Below, one piece after another: positions 2,004 through 35,259 of a stretch of 64,000 nucleotides of DNA. The stretch spans positions 268,322 to 332,321 of the forward strand of contig NZ_LMEX01000002.1 in assembly GCF_001426645.1 (NCBI RefSeq), given 5' to 3'. The notes under the pieces are model-generated. The model was given only the letters and a program-made list of their open reading frames with translations. It was not told where the DNA came from and did no database searches. Positions within the stretch are counted from its first letter, which is position 1. Each line of letters opens with the position of its first letter. The stretch comes from Rhodanobacter sp. Root480. GTDB taxonomy: Bacteria; Pseudomonadota; Gammaproteobacteria; Xanthomonadales; Rhodanobacteraceae. Position numbers and translations under genes: made by a program.

Positions 2004-4529
<2,526 letters not shown>

Positions 4530-20305: not shown

Positions 20306-20343
20306 TTCCCGCCATGATCGCGACAACCCACCGCAGGCTTTTC

Positions 20344-20418
20344 GCAGGAGTGCACCCTGTGCGCGATGTCTTTGTCGCAACGTGCTGAAGAGCTTCGCGC
20401 ACAGGGTGCGCTCCTACA
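20344..20418. repeat. inverted pair of REP-like repeats
   Basis: Two inverted copies of a REP-like sequence, core AGGAGTGCACCCTGTGCGCG at 20346-20365 and its near-complement at 20395-20418. They could fold into a long hairpin. The type (GTAGGAGCGCACC...) is common between genes in pseudomonads and xanthomonads. Lying between the end of the fumarylacetoacetase gene and the hemN promoter, it may also terminate or insulate transcription. Confidence 0.65.
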
Positions 20419-20434
20419 AAAACATACTGGACCG

Positions 20435-23318: not shown

Positions 23319-23351
23319 TGCTGATTCTCCGAATAGGCTGTTCGCTGGCTT

Positions 23352-23463
23352 GCCCTTCGACTTCGGCCCTGCGGGCCTACGCTCAGGGTGATCGGTGTGG
23401 TGCGGCTGTTGCTTTTCTGCCGTTCTCCCTGAGCGTAGGCCCGTAGGGCCGAAGTCGAAGGGC
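23352..23463. repeat. left repeat pair of the GIY-YIG cassette
   Basis: Two 37-bp copies in inverted orientation, 23352-23388 and 23427-23463, differ at one base and are separated by 38 bp. The motif runs from GCCCTTCGACTTCGG to CTACGCTCAGGG. The pair can form a strong hairpin just upstream of hmgA and after the GIY-YIG stop codon, so it may act as terminator or mRNA stabiliser. Confidence 0.8.
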
Positions 23464-23469
23464 CGCCAC

Positions 23470-23763
23470 CTAACGCTGATGCCTGTGTTTACCCTTGCCA
23501 AGGGCACCGATCTCCTTCCAGTCACCCGCCATGTACGCCAGCTTCTTCGCCCGACTCCAGCCTTTCAGCTTGCGCTCCATGGTCAGGGCTTCATAGCGCG
23601 TCTCGAAACCCTCAGCATGGATCAACTTCAATGGACGCCGAGTCGAGGTGTATGCGCAACCCTTGCCCTGATCGTGCTGCGACATCCGTTGATCGAGATT
23701 GTCGGTGTGACCGATGTAGAAGCTGCCGTCGGCGCATTCGAGGATATAGAAGGTGAATTCCAT
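23470..23763 (-). CDS. small GIY-YIG nuclease-domain protein
   Basis: A 97-residue protein consisting of a single GIY-YIG domain of the UvrC/YhbQ type. The signature strands read [18 protein letters not shown] (residues 4-21). A conserved arginine follows in NLDQRMSQH, and the likely catalytic glutamate lies in [13 protein letters not shown]. Such domains cut DNA with one metal ion; there is no DNA-binding fusion. AAGGAAG lies before the ATG. The gene sits within the tyrosine catabolism genes but has no evident metabolic link to them, and is closely bracketed by inverted repeat pairs (stop codon only seven bases from one). I infer a link between nuclease and repeats. Confidence 0.85.
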
Positions 23764-23802
23764 CTCTTTGGCTTCCTTGCCGTGTCAGTGATTCGCCAGC
23801 TT

Positions 23803-23917
23803 GCCCTTCGATTTCGCTGCTGAGGAGCTACGCTCAGGGGGATCGGTTTCTGGGACAACGGAATGTCTCCACACCGATCACCCTGAGCGTAGGCCCGCAG
23901 GGCCGAAGTCGAAGGGC
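23803..23917. repeat. right repeat pair of the GIY-YIG cassette
   Basis: An inverted pair: a diverged copy at 23803-23845 (with GATTTCGCTGCTGAGGAGC in place of the usual centre) and a full copy at 23869-23917, which is the exact inverted partner of 23352-23400. The flank TTCGCCAGCTTGCCCTTCGA preceding this pair also precedes the left pair with two differences, so the two pairs share more than the core. It lies 15 bases beyond the hppD stop codon. Confidence 0.78.
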
Positions 23918-33727: not shown

Positions 33728-33821
33728 CGGGAATCGGGAATAGAGAATGGGGAACAGGCAAAGCAAAATCGCGCTGCCAGCCCGCTCTTCCGATTCCCCA
33801 TTCCCGATTCCCCATTCCCGG
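33728..33821. repeat. inverted repeat of xanthomonad intergenic type
   Basis: GGGAATCGGGAATAGAGAAT-like sequence at 33730-33754 and the reverse complementary TTCCCCATTCCCGATTCCCC series at 33794-33821 can pair over more than 20 bases, enclosing about 40 bases. This GATTCCCCATTCCC type is frequent between genes in xanthomonads. Inside the pdhB-E2 gap it may tune E2 expression or mRNA stability. Confidence 0.7.
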
Positions 33822-33831
33822 ATGAAATCAA

Positions 33832-35259
33832 ATGGCTGATCTCAAGACGTTCTACCTGCCCGACCTCGGTGAAGGCCTGCCCGATGCCACCGTGGTCGAG
33901 TGGCACGTGAAAGTGGGCGACAGCATCAAGCTGGATGCGCCGCTGTGCTCGATGGAAACCGCCAAGGCGATCGTCGACGTGCCCTCGCCCTACACCGGCA
34001 AGGTCACCAAATTGCACGGCGCCCCCGGCGACGTGATCGAGACCGGCGCCGCATTGGCCGAGTTCGAACCGGACCCCAACGCCAAGCAGCGCGCCGAAGC
34101 CGAATCCACCGGCCACCACCACGGCCCGCGCAAGAGCGTGGGCAGCCCGGCCCCGGACAATTCCCGGAAAGTGGTGGCGTCCGATGAAGGCGGCGAAGTC
34201 GCGGTGAAAGGCGTGGATCGCGAGGACGAAGGCACCGTGGTCGGCGCCATGGTCAGCGGCAACACCGTGCATGTGGAACAGGCCGCCTCGGTCGGCGGCG
34301 TGAAAGCCGTGCCGGCCGTGCGCGCGCTGGCGAAAAAGCTGAAGGTCGACCTGACCCGCGTGGCACCCAGCGGCGCCGACGGCGTAGTCACGCTGAAGGA
34401 CGTGAAGAACGCGGCCGCCAACGGCAGCGCGCCCCTGCTCCCCTCTCCCTCCGGGAGAGGGGCTGGGGGAGAGGGTACGGCCGAAGCGCGGCGCTACGCT
34501 TCGCCCGAACCCTCATCCGCCCTGCGGGCACCTTCTCCCGAAGGGAGAAGGGAAGACCAGCGCGGCCCCGTTTCGCTCGCCGGCAAATCCGTCCGCACCG
34601 CACCGCCCTCGCAGCAGGCCAGCGGCCAGCCCGAGCAACTGAAGGGCGTGCGCCGCAACATGGCCCGCGTGATGGCGGACGCCCATGCGCAGGTCGTGCC
34701 CACCACCCTGGTCGACGACGCCGACCTGCACGCCTGGATCGGCAAGCAGGACATCACCGCGCGCCTGATCCGCGCCATCGTGGCCGCCTGCAAGAGCGTG
34801 CCCGCGCTCAACGCCTGGTTCGACGGCAAAAACCTCAGCCGCACCCAGCACCCCCACGTGGACATCGGCATTGCCGTGGACACCGACGACGGCCTGTTCG
34901 TGCCCGCGCTGCGCAATGCCGACGTGCTGGACGCCGCCGGCGTGCGCGCCGCGATCAAGCGCCTGCGCGCGCAAGTGGAAGATCGCTCGATCCCCTCGTC
35001 GGAACTGTCCGGCCACACCATCAGCCTGTCCAACTTCGGCATGTTCGCCGGCCGCTATGCCACCCCGGTAGTGGTGCCGCCGACCGTCGCCATCGTCGGC
35101 GCCGGCAAACTCAGCCACGACGTGGTCGCAGTGATCGGCGGCATCGAAGTACACCGGCGGATGCCGATCAGCCTGACCTTCGACCACCGCGCCGCCACCG
35201 GCGGTGAAGCCGCGCGTTTCCTCAAGGCACTGCTGGACGATCTGGCACAGCCGAACTGA
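33832..35259 (+). CDS. pdhC: dihydrolipoamide acyltransferase (E2)
   Basis: A 475-residue E2. It has one N-terminal lipoyl domain with Lys45 in METAKAIVDV and a peripheral-subunit-binding domain at about 157-198 (VPAVRALAKKLKVD and APSGADGVVTLKDV). A linker follows, then the catalytic domain at about 265-475 with the active-site His452 in FDHRAATGGEAARF. The usual DHRxxDG motif has Thr in place of Asp, as in several one-lipoyl E2 proteins. The linker at about residues 203-242 is encoded by a palindromic repeat. No E3 gene follows; lipoamide dehydrogenase must come from elsewhere. A terminator lies after the stop. Confidence 0.92.
   Translation: MADLKTFYLPDLGEGLPDATVVEWHVKVGDSIKLDAPLCSMETAKAIVDVPSPYTGKVTKLHGAPGDVIETGAALAEFEPDPNAKQRAEAESTGHHHGPRKSVGSPAPDNSRKVVASDEGGEVAVKGVDREDEGTVVGAMVSGNTVHVEQAASVGGVKAVPAVRALAKKLKVDLTRVAPSGADGVVTLKDVKNAAANGSAPLLPSPSGRGAGGEGTAEARRYASPEPSSALRAPSPEGRREDQRGPVSLAGKSVRTAPPSQQASGQPEQLKGVRRNMARVMADAHAQVVPTTLVDDADLHAWIGKQDITARLIRAIVAACKSVPALNAWFDGKNLSRTQHPHVDIGIAVDTDDGLFVPALRNADVLDAAGVRAAIKRLRAQVEDRSIPSSELSGHTISLSNFGMFAGRYATPVVVPPTVAIVGAGKLSHDVVAVIGGIEVHRRMPISLTFDHRAATGGEAARFLKALLDDLAQPN
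34437..34556. repeat. palindromic intergenic-type repeat inside the E2 coding sequence
   Basis: About 120 bp within the E2 linker. Two hairpins, CCCTCTCCC/GGGAGAGGG at 34441-34461 and CCTTCTCCC/GGGAGAAGG at 34531-34551, bound a central segment. This is the familiar proteobacterial intergenic repeat usually found outside genes. Here it is read in frame as PSPSGRGAGGEG and so on, with no stop codon, and adds about 40 residues between the subunit-binding and catalytic domains. Confidence 0.8.

Follow-up and report, generated by a model that had tools for sequence, protein, structure and literature searches.

The stretch of DNA analysed here, the window, comprises 64,000 nucleotides from Rhodanobacter sp. 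Root480 (contig NZ_LMEX01000002.1, positions 268,322 to 332,321 of the forward strand). It contains a dihydrolipoyl acyltransferase (E2) gene, located in a pyruvate dehydrogenase-type operon. The domain order of the encoded protein is lipoyl domain, E3-binding domain, linker and catalytic 2-oxoacid_dh domain; in profile matches to the window E2, the E3-binding domain comprises residues 157–192 and the catalytic domain residues 268–474. The gene was called a pyruvate dehydrogenase E2 in an earlier note on this DNA. The type of operon agrees with this name, although the pyruvate-specific score above the cut-off (TIGR03181) belongs to the neighbouring E1-alpha, encoded upstream of E2, and not to E2 itself.

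The linker between the E3-binding and catalytic domains contains a composite palindromic element, made of a triplex-type motif, then a central hairpin and then the CCTTCTCCC hairpin, which encodes approximately 39 residues. The features of the locus are:

33832..35259, + strand: E2 (dihydrolipoyl acyltransferase) gene, 475 codons, open ORF with PF00364, PF02817 and PF00198
33729..33821, + strand: inverted repeat GGGAATCGGGAAT / ATTCCCGATTCCC in the gap separating E1-beta from E2, distinct from the element, from the sequence
34440..34552, + strand: composite palindromic element, 113 bp, in frame as approximately residues 203–241 (LPSPSGRGAGGEGTAEARRYASPEPSSALRAPSPEGRR), recognised from genome copies and from its absence in relatives
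34440..34475, + strand: intrastrand-triplex-type motif CCCCTCTCCC - TCC - GGGAGAGGGG - CTG - GGGGAGAGGG, from the sequence, with Y-R-R layout
34482..34504, + strand: central hairpin CGAAGCG / CGCTTCG, from the sequence; a hairpin is also present there in the predicted fold
34519..34529, + strand: possible small hairpin GCCC-TGC-GGGC, from the sequence; its bases join the long foldback in the predicted fold
34531..34551, + strand: right hairpin CCTTCTCCC / GGGAGAAGG, from the sequence; in the foldback of the whole element its bases are also paired with the left part

The earlier note described a segment of about 120 bp with two stem-loops, encoding about 40 in-frame residues of the linker. Both stem-loops are present, the left one (CCCCTCTCCC-TCC-GGGAGAGGGG) at 34440–34462 and the right one (CCTTCTCCC-GAA-GGGAGAAGG) at 34531–34551, but they are parts of one 113-bp element; the reading frame and the location in the linker stand, with approximately 39 residues for the element proper. 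Strong folding of the mRNA, which the note had thought possible, is borne out by prediction: the RNA of 34425–34565 has a predicted folding energy of -91.2 kcal/mol against a shuffle mean of -67.0 (sd 4.1, n=200; z -5.9), and none of the 200 shuffles folds as low. The predicted fold is mostly one long foldback and not two separate hairpins.

The only Rfam hits were to microRNA families, scoring well under the gathering scores and taken as chance, and a plasmid search gave 19 records, none of which covers 80% of the query. The AlphaFold model of the window E2 has a mean pLDDT of 53.8, with residues 204–306 below 50. Because the model is poor overall, disorder of the linker is only suggested by it. 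The inverted repeat upstream of the E2 gene (GGGAATCGGGAAT...ATTCCCGATTCCCCATTCCC, window 33729–33821) has a counterpart in a similar GGGATTCGGGATTCG run, which is found 5' of the element copy of another Rhodanobacter genome, G005.

Dispersed copies of the element

The genome of Root480 (G000) contains at least 52 blastn matches to the element, a lower bound as 40 of the 64 first-look candidates were scored; they merge to at least 41 sites. The next-best genome copy is 84% identical to the E2 copy over query bases 9–122 (E 1.4e-27). All 41 sites were fetched and codon usage was scored on both flanks of every spanning frame with a home-made measure trained on the window. Four sites are coding-like on both flanks in one spanning frame (lower score at least 0.27), those in E2, ArgE, an Lhr-type helicase and MurL. 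Among the other 37, 29 score -0.16 or less and eight have no spanning frame. Since the codon-usage score is home-made and window-trained, we infer rather than observe that these 37 sites are intergenic. The dispersed palindrome would then have copies both between genes and, at four of 41 sites, in frame inside them, in agreement with the earlier description of a palindrome of a kind normally found between genes.

Matches to the element are present in 37 of the 60 related genomes searched, G000 included, with up to 14 candidates scored per genome. All 41 distinct long copies, from G000 and its relatives, have at least two of the six frames open and 30 of them have at least four, as a raw count. 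No transposase could be linked to the element in its own genome: around the three PF01797 matches found there, only 13–22-base matches at chance level lie within about 1.5 kb. One of the three is a Y1 transposase (RAYT-like, 275-codon frame) at L251 1330–2154 (C1:1098491).

Other palindromic repeats are also present in the window. A palindromic repeat of 44–49 bp (CCCTTCGACTTCGGCCC...TACGCTCAGGG) occurs four times at positions 23341–23917, and two of these copies show full complementarity along 49 bp. Positions 20339–20422 contain a REP-like inverted pair made of CAGGAGTGCACCCTGTGCGCGA and a near complement of it.

E2 linkers in the genus and the order

The E2 search matched 43 of the 45 genus genomes, with no match in G004 and G019. 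The linker was read from end to end in 37 genomes, a count that leaves out the matched G061, G066 and G067 and takes one of the two E2 matches of G063. Root480 has the element, and the other 36 have an Ala/Pro-rich linker instead, nearly all of one conserved form. Relatives with an E2 free of the segment, which the earlier note proposed to look for, are thus at hand, and from this comparison of sequences the E2 element is derived and was absent from the ancestral linker. Compared with the genus relatives, approximately 27 ancestral linker residues are replaced by 42 in the window E2. The note had also proposed to look for a target duplication, which would be a MITE-like feature; no direct repeat of four or more bases abuts the borders of the E2 element, where the target itself is partly replaced. 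With no border duplication and some 27 residues lost, the insertion step was not clean.

The element is also found at E2 in G005 and G007. In G007 the contig breaks off within the element, which has the same position in E2, and the C-terminal half of the gene was not found. In G005 the element is joined to the catalytic half of E2 and is preceded by unrelated sequence, with a contig end 203 bp beyond; the N-terminal half was not found in that assembly. A contig of G034 starts just after the element site.

On the genus tree (34 of 43 genomes kept; nine with fewer than three genes dropped) G000 and G007 are sisters (100/100), and G005 is paired with G028 (100/100), the linker of which is empty. 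As G005 is not sister to G000 and G007, a second insertion or a lateral exchange is needed within the genus; on the C-terminal half of E2 alone, a single clade is not rejected (p-AU 0.154). A serious contender within the genus, at somewhat less than even chances, is that the E2 element spread through lateral exchange or through gene conversion of the linker, and not by separate insertions. It is favoured by the residues that G000 and G005 share after the element (EDQRGPVSLAGK), by their 106 identical bases out of 115 in the element, and by G028, the sister of G005, which has an empty linker with EPQRSPVSLAGK. On the other hand, E2 carriers elsewhere in the order do not share one form or, on reading, one orientation, so separate arrivals at the E2 linker do occur.

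The divergence between G000 and G005 in the element, 9/115, is close to that in the flank, 78/659. Six of the nine codon differences over 40 codons alter the amino acid, so that the peptide shows no sign of constraint; both results would fit tolerance and not a selected peptide.

In the order Lysobacterales, element-like linkers are present in 13 of 80 named E2 loci, including those of Lysobacter and Thermomonas. A DNA match to the element was obtained for 12 of the 13 carriers, with E values no higher than 2.1e-8 in nine cases; L183 is counted as a carrier from its peptide alone, and L176, L181 and L186 have only short DNA matches (E 0.001 to 4e-4) and appear reversed in orientation on reading. 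On an E2 tree made without the linker, the 13 labelled rows, window included, need nine changes, at least five of them forced by well-supported branches. L181, a carrier on reading, is outside these 13 rows. The window is the only carrier among the 68 rows of its Rhodanobacteraceae group. The carrier label is more clustered than chance (three of 500 shuffles are as low as nine changes), and part of the order-wide pattern is therefore shared ancestry. In the E2 of L191 a second palindrome is apparently nested in the right arm of the element, in frame, giving a linker of 95 residues as parsed.

Alleles of other genes carrying the element

Twenty copies from relatives were picked from matches with long open frames, and 11 of them have coding-like flanks in one spanning frame, a proportion that says nothing on frequency because the loci were chosen for their open frames. 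The genes are those for MetH, HrpB, dihydrolipoyl dehydrogenase, AceF, DNA polymerase I and IleRS, and known domains flank or span the in-gene copies. The extra residues of MetH map to one point of the structure with PDB code 1msk, between 119 and 129, those of HrpB to PDB 6eud at about 240, those of IleRS to PDB 8c9e between 269 and 284, and those of ArgE to its homologue PDB 2f7v between 147 and 151. The earlier view of the E2 linker as one of few tolerant places is therefore too narrow, as loops in the MetH activation domain, the HrpB helicase core, IleRS and ArgE are filled too.

At L236 of G060, adjacent genes for AceF (1217–2689) and a lipoyl-domain dihydrolipoyl dehydrogenase (2693–4519) both contain a linker peptide derived from the element. 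The idea that in-gene copies favour a CT dinucleotide at their left border was dropped, since CT is missing from the Lhr and PolA copies and is present in some copies without an established place in a gene.

Alleles of MetH, HrpB, Lhr, ArgE and MurL were compared in the best 30 loci of up to 45 genomes each. Filled alleles are over-represented in these counts because the loci are those scoring best against a query that contained the element, and the "long" class includes divergent forms (e.g., L259, L260, L289, L290, L291); so read, MetH has seven long, four short and 19 empty alleles, HrpB nine long, three short and 18 empty, Lhr 11 long, one short, 15 empty and two in no class (29 loci parsed), and ArgE ten long, one contracted and 19 empty. 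The MurL alleles are decayed forms, six of the 30 being element-like by eye. For E2, MetH, HrpB, Lhr and ArgE, the host genes stay open and element-free orthologues exist. The long state needs five changes on the 34-genome tree for MetH, five for HrpB, eight for Lhr and seven for ArgE, gains and losses pooled; shared ancestry with later loss may account for any one of these four genes.

Three forward frames of the element are in use, giving LPSPSGRGAGGEG in E2, PLPVGEGRGEG in ArgE and PLSRLRERG in Lhr, and in both MetH and ArgE the element is found in opposite orientations in different species. Shortened forms are present as well. The ArgE of the sister genome G007 has the same ends as that of G000 with exactly 75 bp fewer, in frame, between GGGAGAGGG repeats, and retains one hairpin. 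The change would be a contraction in G007 and the remaining hairpin may be read as its scar. The HrpB allele of G035 consists of the left hairpin alone.

These alleles bear on whether the E2 element is kept for a role of its RNA or DNA within the gene, such as transcription pausing, mRNA processing, supercoiling or a replication barrier, with the peptide being incidental. The very stable predicted RNA fold, the triplex-type motif intact in the E2 copy and the free change of peptide positions between G000 and G005 are what such a role would lead one to expect, but genes unrelated to one another contain the element, in either orientation and more or less decayed, which argues against a single regulatory role and makes this explanation rather improbable.

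A broader proposal is that in Lysobacterales the triplex-type palindrome repeatedly colonises the same few loops of core proteins (E2, MetH, HrpB, Lhr and ArgE) in either orientation and then contracts in frame to a scar, the loops being hotspots and not random survivors. We hold it tentatively, as a conjecture that may well prove wrong. If true, repeat DNA would drive a cycle in which loop segments are added to proteins and lost again.

Known coding palindromes and the origin of the linker segment

It has been proposed that selfish DNA can give rise to new protein segments by way of coding palindromes, the main case being Rickettsia. Such palindromes are already known as the Rickettsia palindromic elements (RPEs) and the intragenic REPs. 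The RPEs are palindromes of about 150 bp, many of them in frame in unrelated genes, with a peptide conformation thought to be compatible with the host proteins (as described in the review PMC10969869). The earlier note likened the E2 segment to them, and in kind the likeness stands: the element is also a dispersed palindrome with copies between and inside genes, in frame in unrelated genes that stay open and have element-free orthologues. The likeness is one of description. Rickettsia, however, belongs to another host class, and the element described here occupies orthologous sites in several frames, in both orientations and in forms shortened between species.

GTAG/CGTC REPs and REP dimers are described inside ORFs, including those of DNA polymerase I, helicases and tRNA synthetases, and are possibly neutral in linkers and loops (PMC3733652). 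The element resembles them in its location in coding linkers and loops. It differs from them at its ends: none of the 41 long copies has GTAG, CTAC, CGTC or GACG near an end. Within the 6-base flanks of these copies CTAC was found in one and CGTC in two, and the window copy contains CTAC once, in the central loop at 34494. The transposase association of GTAG-class REPs is likewise not seen for the element in its own genome.

The intrastrand triplex motif TM has a Y-R-R layout (Table 1 of Holder et al. 2015, PMC4666352). Matched by eye to that table, positions 34440–34475 of the element appear to have the same layout, CCCTCTCCC / GGGAGAGGG / GGGTGAGGG, with arms of 9–10 nt and short loops. The E. 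coli copies are given there by their distance to neighbouring ORFs (PMC4666352), whereas in the element described here it forms the left portion of a larger composite, within a coding frame. Small non-autonomous mobile repeats of enterobacteria are also reported to carry ORFs and to occur inside genes (PMC2759123 and PMC2229807); they are other families in other hosts. In a search of the open-access literature, with subscription papers mostly outside its scope, none of the papers listed describes the triplex-type family inside genes. As the element is RPE- or REP-like in its working and is without REP end tags, it is placed as a coding palindrome built from a triplex-motif composite.

We consider it highly probable that a palindrome of intergenic type landed in the E2 linker and was kept there in frame as coding sequence. 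This was the main reading of the earlier note, and the dispersed copies, the element-free relatives and the in-frame copies in other conserved genes all speak for it. A dispersed palindrome of non-coding type would have inserted into the inter-domain linker of E2 in the lineage of Root480 and its sister G007, displacing approximately 27 residues of the old Ala/Pro linker. The copy would have been retained because it was in frame and its Pro/Gly/Ser-rich peptide makes a tolerable flexible linker. With several open frames per copy, and with different frames and either orientation in use, the element would be permissive, so that tolerant loops keep copies and disruptive insertions are lost. In-gene copies may then contract in frame to a short scar by recombination or slippage between the repeated arms. 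Overall, the element would behave as a non-autonomous repeat, the copies of which survive mostly outside genes, with in-frame copies added in flexible places. We infer that the E2 protein containing the element is made and working and that selection merely tolerates the peptide; its manner of movement is put forward in the same sense.

A linker that is instead ancient, or a convergent low-complexity Pro/Gly sequence resembling a repeat, is very unlikely. Linkers of E2 proteins in the order are indeed rich in Pro and Ala and vary, but the DNA of the E2 element is 84% identical to full-length genome copies (E 1.4e-27) and its RNA fold has a z of -5.9. For an ancient part of the protein, the earlier note would have expected this linker in all relatives, with drifted codons; 36 genus genomes encode the Ala/Pro linker instead. 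Both readings were ruled out by the DNA identity together with the linkers of the relatives. Assembly error or contamination, which the G007 contigs ending in the element at E2 and Lhr and the non-E2 sequence 5' of the G005 element could suggest, is also very unlikely, as the Root480 genome is in four contigs with the E2 frame open across the element, the element is seen at E2 in G000, G005 and G007, and E2 genes of other families also have it.

A free-living bacterial group here provides the same genes with the element in full, shortened or missing, so that it can be tested directly how such segments are gained, tolerated and shortened and what they cost. Sites of the element can also break draft assemblies, as at E2 and Lhr of G007, where contigs end inside the element (L035, L347, L348). 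The Lhr gene of G001 is split over contigs C64 and C65 near the element.
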